From Methanolobus zinderi (GTDB lineage Archaea > Halobacteriota > Methanosarcinia > Methanosarcinales > Methanosarcinaceae): a stretch of DNA of 64,000 nucleotides. The translations under genes were made by a program, and so were the position numbers. Positions 3,089 to 15,050 of this stretch are shown one piece after another. The notes under the pieces are model-generated. The model was not told the origin of the DNA and made no database searches. It saw nothing but the letters and a program-made list of their open reading frames with translations. The stretch covers positions 1,736,001 through 1,800,000 of the forward strand of contig NZ_CP058215.1 of the NCBI RefSeq assembly GCF_013388255.1. Direction: 5' to 3'. Positions within the stretch are counted from its first letter, which is position 1; the number at the start of each line of letters is the position of its first letter.

Positions 3089-4207
3089 TTAAATGACCCC
3101 GAGTTCCGACAGACGGTCAGGTAGATAAGTATCTGTCACAAAGTCAAGACCCTTTCCTGCAAAGGCCTGCTGTTCAGCTTTTTTGTTGATATCAAGCTGG
3201 AGGTTTATCTGTTCCTTCCAGTAATCGTTCTCAAACCTCGGATCACTGAGTTCACTTCTCAGGGCGCTTACGTCCTTGTCTGTCAGCTTATCGGTGGAGA
3301 GTTCATATTCCACGATATCAGATGGCTGGACACCTATAAAATGAGCACCTGGTGTTGCCATATGCTCGGAAAGATGGGCACTTTTTATTGCTCCGTAGGC
3401 AACCGATGCGAATATACGATATGACCACGGGTCACCGTCAGTGAATACCGTGACAGGTATGTTCAGTTCATCGTTCATGCGCTTGATCAGGCGTCTTGTG
3501 GACCTTGCAGGCTGACCCTTAAGGTGAACAAGAATTGCATTGAACTTCTCATCAAAACCGTTCTCAATAAGCCTTGCATACATACCACCGGTCTCAACGG
3601 CAATAATGAAATCAGCATCATGTTCGAGGAACTCTATGTTCTCGACATTGAAGGGTATCTGATATCCGCTTTCACCGATGTCTTCCTGACAGTGCATCAT
3701 CCTGTCTCCACGGTTGGTTTCCTCGCGTATTTTTATGGGTCCGAACATGGTAGCACCGTCCTCTTCCGGACGCATATGGAAGTACTCCCTCTGCAGACCC
3801 GAGATAATCTCCAGATCCTCAACAAGCCTGTCACTTTCGGGCTGTTCACGGAACTTGGCGATATCCCAGTTCTCGGATATATAATACAGTTCCCTTAAAG
3901 TGGATCCGCGGTTCTGACCCAGGTGATTATTGACTATGAAATCCACAACGTGAGTGGTCTTTAAAAGCTGGAAGGCACCTTTTACGGTCTTGGCGCTTCT
4001 TTCGGTCTCCCGGTCACCATACACCCACACATCGTTCTTGTCACAGTATTCGATGTTATTCTTTGTACGGCTCGGCAGATTGACAGACGGGACGGACCCT
4101 TCCAGGAATTGGTTGTAAAGCTTCTCGGCCATTCCAAGAAGACGATTCTTAGCAGCACTATCCTGCTCTTTTTTCTGCTGTGATAATTTTTCTGCCATAT
4201 CTCTCAT
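3089..4207 (-). CDS. top6A: DNA topoisomerase VI subunit A
   Basis: 372 residues, normal for the archaeal Spo11-like catalytic subunit that breaks both DNA strands and becomes covalently attached through a tyrosine. The winged-helix 5Y-CAP domain carries LRELYY (residues 105-109), one of these tyrosines being the nucleophile. The Toprim domain follows, with the acidic FTDGDPW segment near 255-261 for Mg2+. It overlaps top6B by 4 bases (ATGA type), so it is translationally coupled. A second ATG at 4198 is better placed behind GGGGATGAG and may be the real start. It forms an A2B2 enzyme with the neighbour. Confidence 0.96.
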
Positions 4208-6066
4208 CCCCTTATTGCCTTTGCACCTGTTACAAGCTCCTCATCAAGCCCTTCAACTATCAGTGAAGGCAGACGGGACATCTCATTCTCTTCTGTACTT
4301 GCTACGGAATATTCTATTACTTTAGAAGAACCGGCGGAAATGCTCATCTTCCATACATGATCGTAATCGTTACCCATGGATATCACTTTGGGCTCCGGGA
4401 CAGCTCCTTCTATCTTAAAAGGAAGCATGTCATGGATATTGAAGTCGTATTTCTTAGAGGAATAGTTCCTCACACGTATCGAGACCTTAACAGCACCATT
4501 GCCATTGCTCTCAATTATCCTGTCAACAAGCAGGTTACCCATGACCTTTGCAACAACAGGGTTTATGTCAGGAATATCCTTATCGAGCGTTATGGCAAGT
4601 TTTTCGGCCATTTTGGGAAGTACCTTTTTTATAATAACTTCTTTCTCACGACGCTTTTTCAGTGAATCCTGCTTGCTCAGGAAACGGCTGAGCTTTCTGG
4701 AAACCTCCTTTACGGCAAGCTCTATCTCATCCTTAATTTCCGGAATCTCGGCAATAGCATCCTTTGATTCCGAGGTGAACGGAACATTTGTTGAAGCAAC
4801 ATGTACAAGGATCACAGCCGGACCGCTGGGTATTCCGCCACCAGGCTGGTTGAGTCCGTACTGTTTCCACTTTATGGACTCGATGGCATGTGTGGTAACA
4901 CAGCCTCCCTGCTGATATAGTAAAGGAACCCTGTTGGCAAAACGCATGATATCGATGCGTTCCTCCTTGTGAAGTTCACCACCGTAGGCTATGCCCACCT
5001 CTACGACAAAGGGATTGCCGGAAAATACAGAAGGTGAGCGGGTCGTGGTCGCAATGAAATCCACATTGAACTCCTTTTCAAGACCCTTGTAGATCAGATC
5101 CTCGCTTATGGGAGAAAGGCAGTCTGTGGGAGGAGCCATTATCTTTACCCTGGAGAACGCATCCAGAAGTTTTCTTGCCTGGTCGCGGTTCATCTCATGA
5201 GGGTCAAGTTCCGGGTCAAGACCGGATGCCTTACAGATCTCTTCTGCAGTCAGGTGCCCGATCTTGGAAAAAGAATAGCGTAAAAAGGGAGATAGTTTCT
5301 GACGTTCAGTATATCTGAGCATCTTCATAAGTGTACCAAGCTCGATCCCATGAGGATGCGGAAGAATCTCGTTTGCAGGGACTGGCATCTTGTCAGTTGC
5401 CCTCTCGAATATCTCCTCGTTGCCGTCAGGTTCCACCAGCCGGATCCTGGCATGCGGATTTACGATCGCGGTTGCCTTTAGATACTCATATATCGACTGC
5501 CTTCTGCCTTTTACATAGGATGCTTCCATTTCCAGCTCAATGCGCGTGCCGTGCGGACGGTCCCAGTCCACAATATCGTCCTTCAGGATCTCAGGCTCAT
5601 TGGTACTGGTATTTATCATCAGCTCGTAATTGTGTGCCGGCTTTGAAGGATCGATCTTGGAGATGATCTTTGCCGGGTGGCCGGATGTCAGCTGTGAATA
5701 AAGAACGGATGCGGATATTCCTATACCCTGCTGCCCACGGCTCTGTTTCAGTGCGTGGAACCTTGAGCCATAAAGCAGTTTTGCAAATACCTTGGGGATC
5801 TGCTCCTTTACTATACCGGGCCCGTTGTCTTCGATGATGATGACAACGTTATCCTTTCCGGAACGTTCAACGTGTAACAGGATATCCGGCAGTATCTCGG
5901 ATTCCTCACAGGCATCAAGGGAGTTATCTACAGCTTCCTTGACGGTGGTTATAAGACTGCGGGGTGCGGAATCAAAACCCAGGATCTGTCGGTTCTTCTC
6001 AAAGAATTCTGCGACACTAATGGATTTCTGACTCTTTGCAAGTTCTTCTGCAATGGGGGTTGCCAT
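4204..6066 (-). CDS. top6B: DNA topoisomerase VI subunit B
   Basis: 620 residues. This is the ATPase subunit that clamps DNA on ATP binding and drives strand passage by subunit A. The GHKL fold is evident: N box [12 protein letters not shown] (about 45-56), DNGPGI (about 80-85) and the glycine-rich GQQGIGISA (about 112-120). The H2TH and transducer domains follow; the conserved transducer lysine should lie near 430-440. It is the first gene of the top6B-top6A operon. The promoter side is the 60-70 AT-rich bases before 6153. The start is the ATG at 6066. Confidence 0.97.
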
Positions 6067-9606: not shown

Positions 9607-10380
9607 ATGATGGAAATGGAAGCTGTACTGATAAAAGCAAAGAATATTTCTTCGGCATGGTCGCAACTGATCTATGAGATATACAAAAAAGGAGAAGAGC
9701 ATAAACCCGACTACAACACAATGACAAAAAGGGTTCATGCAACTATCCAGATAGAGGATGTGAATACGAATCAGGTTAATCCTGCGGTTCCCTTCGGTGA
9801 GAATCTCATCAAAAAATACAAAGAGGAACTCACTGAGGAGTATGCTGACTGGTATATATCCCTACCCGAGGACGATAAAAGGAAGTTTGACTACTGTTAT
9901 GCAAAACAACTCTTCAGGTATGGAGAAACAGCTTACAACACCCTGAAAGAGAACGTGGTAAACCTGCGACCGGGTTCGAGAAGACATGTGGGAGTTCTTT
10001 GGGAAAATGAAGTACATATCCCGAAGTTCGAGGATCAGCCCTGCTGGATAGCATATAAGATAGAACTTATCAATGATACGCAGACAAGGGTCTACATCCT
10101 GTATCGTTCATGGGATGCATTCGGAGGCTTCCCTGCAAATATCCCTGCGATCGTGGAAGGGATAAAGAAGGTTTTCAGGGAACAGGATCTGCCCTATGAG
10201 ATCGAGTCCCTCATAGCTACCGGCTGGGATACGCACATCTATGATGCCGATCTGCAGGCTGTTGAGAAGATCTTCAAGTCCAATGAACTCTGCCCCCTCT
10301 GCAAATGCATCATGCCAAAACATTCATTCATACCCACCACAAAGGGACGTGCATGTCCGGAGTGTAAAAAGTCAATGTGA
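9607..10380 (+). CDS. thymidylate synthase-like protein with C-terminal zinc ribbon
   Basis: 257 residues. The middle aligns by eye with ThyA: QPCW (about 141-144) occupies the catalytic-Cys position of the ThyA PPCH motif; YRSWDAFGGFPANI (about 163-176) matches the RSxDxFLGxPxNI phosphate and substrate loop; GWDTHIYDADLQ (about 204-215) matches the conserved DxHxY region. It should therefore methylate or hydroxymethylate a pyrimidine nucleotide, with the archaeal folate analogue as possible cofactor (inference). The last 30 residues add CPLC and CPEC knuckles, a zinc ribbon absent from bacterial ThyA. The ATG at 9607 is followed by alternative starts at 9610 and 9616. Confidence 0.8.
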   Translation: MMEMEAVLIKAKNISSAWSQLIYEIYKKGEEHKPDYNTMTKRVHATIQIEDVNTNQVNPAVPFGENLIKKYKEELTEEYADWYISLPEDDKRKFDYCYAKQLFRYGETAYNTLKENVVNLRPGSRRHVGVLWENEVHIPKFEDQPCWIAYKIELINDTQTRVYILYRSWDAFGGFPANIPAIVEGIKKVFREQDLPYEIESLIATGWDTHIYDADLQAVEKIFKSNELCPLCKCIMPKHSFIPTTKGRACPECKKSM

Positions 10381-10515
10381 CTTACACTCCCCGACATCTA
10401 TTTTATTAAAGATATACTATAATGAATATATTATAAAATATTCTTTTAAAACTGCATAATAAATGCCATATATCGAGGTTTTGGTCGGCCATCTTTTAAA
10501 ATATATTTCCATTAA

Positions 10516-10542
10516 TTATATATGTATGATGTATGCATACAT
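10516..10542 (+). promoter_or_regulatory. TATA box with 14-base palindromic operator candidate
   Basis: An ATTATATATG TATA-like box (10516-10525) precedes the perfect palindrome ATGTATGCATACAT at 10529-10542. The palindrome falls between the TATA box and the predicted transcription start near 10545, where a repressor would block RNA polymerase. The downstream gene begins with a ribbon-helix-helix DNA-binding domain, a class that commonly controls its own promoter through short inverted repeats; autoregulation is inference. Confidence 0.5.
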
Positions 10543-10585
10543 AGGTATGTTCCTGAACATATTCAATACCCGGTGAGAGATTGCA

Positions 10586-12583
10586 ATGAAACGCCTGACT
10601 ATCAGCATGTCCGATGAGCTTTTCAGTAAACTGGAAAGTGTGGAGAACAAAAGCCTGTTCATACGAAAACTGATCGAAAGAGAACTCGATATGCTTGACA
10701 GCATAAGCGATATTGACAGTAATACACCATGGGAACGGGACATTGCATCTCTCAAAGGAAATATTGACGAGCTTTTTACAAGATTGTCAGACATGGAAGC
10801 GCAGTTAAACTCCAGTTTAATGCAGGACATCCCAAAACCTGAAACCATACCGGAAACAGATCTCAGCGGTGCCGGGGAACAGGCAGCAGTTTCAGGAAGA
10901 GATAATCAGGAACTTCAGGAAACACTTTCTACTGAACAGAGCAGTACACCGGCGACCCCATACATAATTAATGAAAATCAGGAACCTGAACTCCCCATAA
11001 CAGAGGAGCCGGAGATTTCTGAAAAGGTCCAGGAAGATGCAAAACCATTTTTAACACATGCTGAAGTTCCCGCAGATGCACAAGCAGAGAACTGGACCCA
11101 GCCTTTGGCAGATAACACGGAACTTACACCTGCTGTTGAAACCATTCCTGAAAAAAATACACCTGACATAGCGACCATTAATCAACAAACACCGGAACCG
11201 GAATCTCCGGCAATCCAGAATCAGCAACAAGAGCCAATATTCAAATTACCGGAGCTTGAAACAGATACTGAAAACCATGAGGACAGTGGATTTAAGCTCC
11301 CCGATATGGGGCCAGACATTGAAACCCAGCAGGAAAATACTTTTAAAACTCCCGAGTTTGAGGAAACAGAGGAATCTCATCATAATACAGGAACACAAAT
11401 ACCAGACCTGAAACCACAGAAAGAAGCGTTGCAGGAAAATACTTTCTCAGTGCCGGACGTGGGGCCGCGGCAGGAGGAACAGCAGAAATGGACGATGCCG
11501 GACCTTAAACCATCACCGGATGCTCAACAGATTGCCGAAACTGCTAAAATGCCAGATCCTGAACCACCTGTTGAAACCCATCAGGAACCAGGATTTGTAA
11601 TGCCTGAATTAAAACCCCCTGCAGAGAATAAGCAGAATCAGGAAACAGTAGTTCCGGAAATTGATACAAGTAAAGCTCAACAGGAACCTGCATTTTCAAT
11701 GCCGGAACTCAAAGCTCCGATGGAGGAGAAATCTGACCAGGGCATGGCGATGCCGGATTTAAAACCTCCGACAGAACCACAGTCAGAGCCTCCATTCACC
11801 ATGCCTGATCTGAAAACACCGGGAACCGATCAACAGGAGCCACCATTCCAGATACCTGACCTGAAACCTCCTGCAGAAGTGACCGGAAATGAAGCAGCGG
11901 GCATGCCTGGCATGGAACCACCTTTTGAGAATACAGGTGAAGAATCATTTGCAATGCCTGATCTCAGCTCTCCTGAACCGGACGCACAGACACCTCCATT
12001 CATGTCTGAAACAAAACCGCCCTTTGAGAACAATGATCAGGGATTTGCAATACCTGATCTGAAACCACCGGAAGGAATGGAAGAAGCTACAAGTCCCGGC
12101 ATACCTGACCTGCAACAGACAGCTGCGCCACCATTCGAGACAATGCAACAGGGACAGCCCGAGGAAAAGCAACCCCTGTTCAAAATACACAATATAGACT
12201 CGGACCAGCCAGATGATGAGCAGCCACCATTTGTGGCACCTGCTTTCCCGGAATCACAGCCACAGGAGAATGCACAGCTTCCACCATTTGAAAATCCCGG
12301 CCAGGATATTAATCCACCGGCAGCTCAGCCACCAACACAGCCGGTCAACGAAAAACCACCGGCACCACCCACCGGAAATAGCAGTTTAAAGCCTGACAAG
12401 CTGGGAAGCAATATCCTGATGTACATGCCACATGGTGCAAAGGTCAAGAAGGATATCATTAAGAGCCTGATATCAAAGCAGTTCACGGAGAATGAAATAG
12501 AAGCAAAGTTATCAGAAATGATCTCAGCCGGTGTGCTGAAGCTTTCTGAGGAGAATGGAAATAGCTACCTGATACGTCCATGA
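10586..12583 (+). CDS. ribbon-helix-helix protein with about 18 17-residue PDLKPP repeats and C-terminal winged-helix-like domain
   Basis: 665 residues. Residues 1-40 are a CopG-type ribbon-helix-helix (beta strand KRLTISMS, then two helices ending RKLIEREL). A short coiled segment (about 50-75) is followed by an acidic Gln/Pro/Glu-rich region. From about residue 219 to 520 a repeat of about 17 residues recurs with consensus F-x-M-P-D-L-K-P-P then eight polar residues ending Q-E-P; I count about 18 units of 14-18 residues. The last 65 residues (LGSNILMYMP onward) look like a small winged-helix domain. ATG 10586 follows GGTGAG. Unique architecture to me; a structural or DNA-bridging role is speculation. 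Confidence 0.85.
   Translation: MKRLTISMSDELFSKLESVENKSLFIRKLIERELDMLDSISDIDSNTPWERDIASLKGNIDELFTRLSDMEAQLNSSLMQDIPKPETIPETDLSGAGEQAAVSGRDNQELQETLSTEQSSTPATPYIINENQEPELPITEEPEISEKVQEDAKPFLTHAEVPADAQAENWTQPLADNTELTPAVETIPEKNTPDIATINQQTPEPESPAIQNQQQEPIFKLPELETDTENHEDSGFKLPDMGPDIETQQENTFKTPEFEETEESHHNTGTQIPDLKPQKEALQENTFSVPDVGPRQEEQQKWTMPDLKPSPDAQQIAETAKMPDPEPPVETHQEPGFVMPELKPPAENKQNQETVVPEIDTSKAQQEPAFSMPELKAPMEEKSDQGMAMPDLKPPTEPQSEPPFTMPDLKTPGTDQQEPPFQIPDLKPPAEVTGNEAAGMPGMEPPFENTGEESFAMPDLSSPEPDAQTPPFMSETKPPFENNDQGFAIPDLKPPEGMEEATSPGIPDLQQTAAPPFETMQQGQPEEKQPLFKIHNIDSDQPDDEQPPFVAPAFPESQPQENAQLPPFENPGQDINPPAAQPPTQPVNEKPPAPPTGNSSLKPDKLGSNILMYMPHGAKVKKDIIKSLISKQFTENEIEAKLSEMISAGVLKLSEENGNSYLIRP
11240..12135 (+). 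repeat. tandem 51-base coding repeats (17-residue PDLKPP units)
   Basis: The repeats inside the RHH protein begin near FKLPELET and end near GIPDLQQ. Most units are exactly 17 residues, a few 14, 15 or 18. The invariant core is Pro-(Asp/Glu)-Leu with a hydrophobic residue before it (Met, Ile, Val or Leu) and often Lys-Pro-Pro after it. Units diverge in the polar linker, so the array is old or under selection only on the core. Confidence 0.8.
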
Positions 12584-14545: not shown

Positions 14546-15050
14546 TGAAGAACCTCTTTACTTTGTGCCTAATTCTACTACTAGTAATAGAAAAGGGAAT
14601 ATATAATAAGTGTGTGCGGTTCCGCACGCATACTCTGCATACATGTAGGAAAGCCTCACATCATACTGGGTATTACAATTCACACATACTGTATGTACAT
14701 CTCATACACGTATTAACCGATAAATGGAGTAAGAATATATCATATTTTGTACGATTTGGCGGAAAACTTCCTTTTAGTGATTATCTTTGCCTCAAGAATA
14801 CATTTGTAGTCACAAAGAACAAATATCTGATCGACCAAGAGGACCAGGTACAAAGCAAACAGGAATAAGTATATGGCTTATCCAATAGCAAGAAAGGGCA
14901 TGAAACGCCGTCTGGAAGGCAAGCCAATTTAATCAGATATTCCCTGACCGGCAATCTTCCAGATAAACAAATAATGCAGCATATACTGTATATTGAGATG
15001 TATACAATAAATTAGCCGTTTCTGAATATAGATAAAACTAAGAATACAAC
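14546..15050. other. 505-base intergenic region, promoters and no clear gene
   Basis: This divergent space carries the ilvD promoter (minus) and the promoter of the radical SAM gene (plus). A 128-codon open frame running 14482-14868 begins inside ilvD antisense and has no recognisable features. A 19-codon frame at 14873-14932 is preceded by AGGA but has no support. A small imperfect repeat ACATACTGTATGT lies at about 14685-14697. Confidence 0.6.
14611..14630. promoter_or_regulatory. inverted repeat upstream of the ilvD TATA box
   Basis: TGTGTGCGG and CCGCACGCA pair over nine positions with one G-T, separated by two bases. It sits directly upstream of the minus-strand TATA-like sequence of ilvD, a position where activators or repressors commonly bind in archaea. 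No regulator is identified. Confidence 0.35.

Follow-up and report, generated by a model that had tools for sequence, protein, structure and literature searches.

Ribbon-helix-helix (RHH) proteins fold as obligate dimers, and in NikR the N-terminal RHH strand makes its contacts through R3, T5 and T7. The E. coli NikR operator reads GTATGA-N16-TCATAC (PMC7055735). The nearest described layout to that of the protein family reported here belongs to CdrL (VNG0195H), a haloarchaeal RHH regulator of cdrS-ftsZ2 that has one reproducible ChIP genomic target and is reported only from Halobacteria (PMC7439475). With regard to the opposite end of the chain, the relevant precedent is the winged helix of Rpa2, which binds PriSL (primase) and PolD (PMC11686378).

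The window, that is, the whole 64-kb stretch of Methanolobus zinderi DNA that was analysed, holds one member of a real, conserved and undescribed protein family, which probably represents an RHH regulator type with an added putative docking-array arm. The features of the locus are collected in Table 1; in addition, a GGTGAG stands upstream of the ATG of the ORF. Pfam and NCBIfam scans of the window protein returned nothing above cut-off, in keeping with the initial annotation, which had named no described family with this layout, and no published account of the family was found in the literature searched. A viral, plasmid or phage origin was also considered and dropped, as no relatives were found in collections of such sequences.

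Table 1. Features of the locus, with positions in the window and residues of the window protein
Feature	Positions	Strand	Remarks
Conserved AT-rich, TATA-like stretch abutting the operator-like array	10499..10523	+	
Operator-like array GTATGA-N5-GCATAC-N4-GTATG	10524..10549	.	ends 36 bp before the ATG
Whole ORF, 665 aa, member of the family described here	10586..12583	+	ATG start, intact
RHH-like N-terminus, residues 1-38, strand MKRLTIS	10586..10699	+	outward R3, T5, S7 by register
Coiled-coil-like helix, residues 49-79	10730..10822	+	
Acidic linker without repeats, residues 81-218	10826..11239	+	
~17 units of 17 residues, core F-x-M-P-[DE]-L-K-P-P-E, residues 219-506	11240..12103	+	
Pro/Gln/Asn-rich linker, residues 507-604	12104..12397	+	
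Winged-helix domain, residues 605-664	12398..12577	+	AlphaFold
Six dispersed GTATG/CATAC half-sites in the ilvD-radical-SAM divergent gap (14546-15050)	14629..14707	.	the 64-kb window has no denser cluster of these words

Whole-genome searches find the homologous locus once per genome, in 58 of the 112 genomes of the taxonomic family, and the gene is present, single-copy and at one locus, in 8 of the 14 Methanosarcinaceae genera. The C-terminal end alone finds matches in 59 of 186 genomes and 8 of 27 genera of the order, all in family f1, and a C-end profile run across 393 genomes of the phylum gives matches that are confined to the Methanosarcinaceae. Hereafter, g1 denotes the genus of the window, while g2, g7 and g10-g14 are handles for other genera. 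The gene is absent from all five g13 genomes inspected, though rfcL, mtxX, mtxA and mtxH are present there in order. Protein length ranges from 184 aa (g10) up to 714 aa (g1), and the linker spans ~40 to 570 residues among members with both ends retained; the homology search in Methanosarcinales that had been proposed with the initial annotation finds a repeat number that varies between two ends that are kept. The invariant positions are M1, L4, D10, L12, L16 and L34 in the N-end alignment, and Y20, K28 and L35 in the C-end alignment. In two draft genomes the gene is split into N-end and C-end ORFs (L087 of G025, 3754-5052, and L024 of G051, 71-1839), which is due to a frameshift or an assembly error in the linker. 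In the g7 genome G022, the gene is reduced to its first ~100 residues beside a TnpB-like insertion (L195, 1024-2631), and given this cut-down copy it seems to be dispensable there.

The linker of the window protein is dominated by a period of 17 residues. BLOSUM self-correlation over residues 216-600, compared with shuffles, gives lag 17 as the top period (z 10.8), followed by lags 34 (z 7.8) and 51 (z 6.4), and the spacing between unit starts is 15-18 residues, in most cases exactly 17. The number of units comes close to the about 18 that had been given in the initial annotation. The pattern [MFILV]P[DE][LMFI] has 13 matches in the linker, whereas 0.5 are expected from shuffles. The repeat part is composed of 18% Pro and carries a net charge of -51 over 345 residues, with Arg, Trp and Tyr each at 0 to the nearest percent. 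At the sensitivity of Tandem Repeats Finder there is no tandem repeat in the DNA of the window array, which indicates that the protein period has outlived the divergence of the DNA.

The same core recurs across the genus. Motif copies in g1 members number 2-27 (0.3-0.9 expected), and lag 17 or 34 is the top period in all of them, even in those with a core so decayed that 2-4 matches are left; the two g14 members that are long enough for the test both have a period of 17 or 34. One array (G060) is fresh, with 16.9 copies of 51 bp and 88% matches at the DNA level. Common to all arrays are F(-2), M(0), P(+1), E/D(+2), L(+3), K(+4), P(+5), P(+6) and E(+7), while the fillers differ, and the flank identity of repeats is 0.48 within proteins versus 0.27 between proteins. 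A shared core with turned-over fillers suggests that the arrays have re-expanded locally again and again, while selection preserved one short motif together with its spacing. Each g7 member tested has a single copy, TLSFP[DE][LM][KR][IV]PPE. One g7 member (L074, 4264-6195) contains a strongly periodic SLPDPLDSPL array with SLPDPLDSPLVSDPVISP-type repeats, which is unrelated to the period-17 core and stands independently where the Methanolobus-type array would be. Members from g10 and g12 have zero motif copies, and the docking array is therefore not essential to the family, which counts against reading the protein as a hub. Binding of one partner per unit, which the initial annotation had offered among other functions, is what the motif evidence would fit best.

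At the N-terminus, MKRLTISMSDELF...ENKSLFIRKLIERELD has a register compatible with strand-helix-helix. Pfam RHH_1 matches 3 of 27 members (best E 0.0019) and not the window protein itself, and hhalign against local RHH_1 proteins returns the correct register with P 0.001 at a probability of only 22%. In PDB sequence lists for the N-end, NikR (1q5v) is the sole RHH protein, with weak E values of 0.18-1.2, and the rest is coiled-coil noise. In the reverse search the N-end profile finds ordinary RHH-type proteins at E ~1e-5, including RHH-like plus coiled-coil ones in other genera. Taken as a sequence assignment, the RHH thus has modest support. The AlphaFold alignments took in the window sequence and L002-L004, and the N-end monomer was modelled with helices at 6-14, 19-38 and 49-79 and no strand; Foldseek found no meaningful match to this monomer model. 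Given that the RHH is a dimer fold, the monomer model neither supports nor refutes it. Among the finds of the N-end profile are short, uncharacterised RHH-like plus coiled-coil proteins that end in a KKWWEFWKK or KKKWYQFW tail, from two other lineages (L192, 442-927; L193, 3746-4204; L189, 3585-4010; L190, 4014-4376).

The strongest clue to the RHH end is the operator-like array, which was missed by the initial annotation. In 21 aligned g1 sequences, the best-conserved upstream part is a ~50-bp block that consists of the TATA-like stretch followed by GTATGA-N5-(T/G)CATAC-N4-(G)TATG, so that the half-sites stand in a row of three, 10-11 bp apart, about one helical turn. With up to one mismatch the array occurs in 15 of the 27 genomes of the genus, each time ~60 bp (start to start) upstream of the family gene and nowhere else; with two mismatches five more genomes have it at the same place, the remaining two-mismatch matches being at or below control level. 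In three genomes the first two half-sites are spaced N4 instead. The same half-sites with N5 spacing precede the g14 and g2 copies, and in g14 N4 spacing and a perfect TCATAC are also found. An array of short half-sites in the promoter under control, often that of the regulator itself, is an RHH-family trait, and it is present in g1, g2 and g14 in the form of candidate sites. The array was not found upstream of g7, g10 and g11 members. The strand reads MKELKIS in g7 and MRQLKID in g10 (MKELTIY in one g10 member), both genera being without the array, but g11 has the g1 strand MKRLTIS and no array either, hence strand and operator are not in strict co-variation.

Transcription in Methanolobus starts ~19-22 nt from BRE/TATA (PMC5378194), and at this published distance the start site falls inside the array whichever TATA candidate is used. 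The natural reading of the array is that of a candidate operator, at which a repressor of its own gene may bind. Genome-wide, TCATAC-N0-10-GTATGA and GTATGA-N0-10-TCATAC palindromes stay at control level, and no wider regulon is therefore claimed. Palindromes of the first type number four in the genome, two of them within the window. A perfect palindrome, TCATACATGTATGA, lies at 199-212 of the window together with GTATG/CATAC clusters, in the gap beyond a DUF6141 gene; in the matching gap of the relatives L157, L158, L166 and L171, this arrangement precedes a small uncharacterised gene (MNTLYSLREWI...).

On contigs of sufficient length, the gene order is rfcL (-), mtxX (+), mtxA and mtxH (+) and the family gene (+), after which ilvD (-) and a radical-SAM gene usually come. 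MtxX is reported to be a protein of unknown function (PMC3087415). In g1 and g11 a thymidylate-synthase-like gene takes the place of mtxA and mtxH. The window copy of this protein (9607-10380) scores 77 bits against TIGR03283, for which the cut-off is 174.6, and has an extra C-terminal, zinc-ribbon-like CPLC...CPEC tail. In g10 the family gene starts within ~50 bp of the mtxH stop, and the two are probably on one transcript. Across eight g1 genomes, GTATG/CATAC is 3.2-fold enriched between ilvD and the radical-SAM gene (46 versus ~14 expected, nominal P 3e-10, a value that ignores kinship of the genomes), and GTATG outranks all 29 other permutations of the word. These half-sites lie scattered and do not align, and clusters occur in other gaps too; the gap is a possible second target, for which the sequence is suggestive only.

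AlphaFold predicts the C-terminal end with a pLDDT of ~90 over the domain, as H-S-H-H-S-S with a wing (H12-19, E26-28, H29-36, H42-54, E59-63, E66-70). In VIA-align the matches are headed by the winged helix of Pyrococcus abyssi Rpa2 (Z 9.4, rmsd 3.0, 69 aligned), followed by the MCM5 winged helix (9.3), DsrD (9.1), MecI (8.9) and many others, all of which are tied, and 82 chains reach Z 8 or more. Foldseek alone gave no E below 0.001 with the C-end, while the PDB sequence search returned weak matches to the Rpa2/RPA32 winged helix. In nearly all of the 27 members that were aligned, helix 3, the recognition helix, is acidic, with a net charge between -5 and 0 and a mean of -2.5. The family thereby departs from the basic or neutral recognition helix of DNA-binding winged helices, and groove binding by helix 3 is disfavoured. 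The initial annotation had placed an RHH start, the repeats and a winged-helix end in one chain with DNA contact at both ends. The order is borne out, the winged helix with high confidence by AlphaFold and the RHH-like start modestly by sequence, though not by its monomer model, and the coiled-coil-like helix after the RHH (~49-79) is a part that this account had lacked. The contact at both ends fares worse, since helix 3 is acidic and the protein-binding winged helices of Rpa2 and MCM5 are tied with DNA-binding ones, which makes simple two-end DNA bridging the weaker version. The presence of many DNA binders among the tied matches is in turn a point against a protein-binding winged helix.

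The reading that we favour, with a belief that is evenly balanced, is that of an RHH repressor which controls its own gene and at the same time serves as a multivalent docking hub anchored at the promoter. RHH dimers, with the coiled coil behind them, would sit on the three GTATGA-type half-sites that cover the core promoter and the predicted start site, and this occupancy would shut the gene down when the protein is plentiful. The long acidic arm, presumably disordered, would hang from this promoter anchor with many copies of the motif, each F-x-M-P-[ED]-L-K-P-P-E may bind one copy of a partner, and the length of the array would set the capacity. The C-terminal winged helix would be mainly a second protein-binding module and not a second DNA grip. 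A bolder form of the same idea, which we regard as rather doubtful, is a lineage-specific, valency-tuned hub, in which an RHH protein at a single chromosomal site would use 1 to ~20 motif units and a protein-binding winged helix to gather many copies of a replication, methyl-transfer or transcription factor, array length being an adjustable dose control.

A simpler explanation is a plain local transcription regulator, in which the RHH would repress its own gene and perhaps ilvD/radical-SAM or mtx, the linker would be a spacer, the winged helix would either bind DNA in its turn or act as an effector domain, and the repeats would be a product of slippage under weak selection. The synteny with mtxX (plus mtxA and mtxH or the thyA-like gene) and ilvD, the probable cotranscription with mtxH in g10 and the enrichment of half-sites in the ilvD-radical-SAM gap of eight genomes are all consistent with such a regulator, and g10 members manage without repeats. 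However, a pure spacer needs neither a core that is kept across arrays with turned-over fillers nor the single conserved motif copy of g7, and the scattered ilvD half-sites, with clusters in other intergenic regions as well, also argue against it; we consider this explanation rather unlikely.

The initial annotation had suggested bridging or looping. In the form considered here, promoter-bound RHH dimers would join two DNA sites with the help of either the winged helix or further RHH dimers at the ilvD gap 4 kb away. Two DNA-binding-type folds in one chain and clusters of half-sites to either side of the gene speak for this proposal, but it is weakened by the family-wide acidity of helix 3 and by the range of linker lengths between constant ends, which a defined bridge would not easily tolerate, and it appears improbable. 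More improbable still is a chromosome-site (centromere-like) or nucleoid factor, which would mark one locus and use its repeats and winged helix to recruit the machinery of segregation, replication or division. RHH centromere binders exist (ParG, Omega and SegB), there is one array per genome, rfcL is a neighbour and the winged helix resembles those of Rpa2 and MCM. Nevertheless, no ParA/SegA-type partner is seen at the locus, the array lies exactly on the promoter of the gene, and absence from about half of the genomes of the family, including g13, together with the truncation in one g7 genome indicates that the gene is not essential.

Scaffolds built on multivalent linear motifs are familiar from eukaryotes, and to our knowledge few have been described in archaea. 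The present family offers a natural series for testing how valency tunes an archaeal regulator: among relatives the motif copies range from one to more than 20, the genes are single-copy orthologues that share one locus, and a candidate operator is available. Furthermore, the family gene adjoins the methyl-transfer paralogues mtxX/mtxA/mtxH, and Methanolobus and its relatives are methylotrophic methanogens.

Among known systems, the RHH plus coiled-coil proteins of the related archaea g6 and g25 (~120-161 aa), which are found by the N-terminal profile, are without the linker, the repeats and the winged helix; they have a Lys/Trp-rich tail and a different genomic place. Archaeal Rpa2 resembles the family in its small winged helix that ends an acidic linker, which gave the top structural match, albeit a tied one, and a weak sequence match; on the other hand, Rpa2 is set apart by its OB fold and its RPA partners, and Pfam gives no OB-fold match here. 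NikR has an N-terminal RHH with the strand residues R3/T5, which also occur in the RHH-like strand here, and the GTATGA half-site is common to both, but the spacing differs, with N16 in NikR and three half-sites in a row at 10-11 bp here. NikR also has a nickel-binding tetramerisation domain, whereas Pfam and NCBIfam scans reveal no metal domain in the family, and in the absence of this C-terminal domain the family is not assigned to NikR. CdrL comes nearest, as an archaeal protein in which an N-terminal RHH, RHH-like in the family here, is followed by a long extension and then by a C-terminal domain of another kind. That domain is a double zinc ribbon in CdrL, whereas the C-terminus in the window is a winged helix without Cys, and the CdrL locus is cdrS-ftsZ2, in contrast to thyA-like or mtxA/mtxH, mtxX, rfcL and ilvD; membership was rejected on these differences of C-terminal domain and locus. 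Compared with CdrL, the period-17 repeats are the feature that belongs to the family described here.
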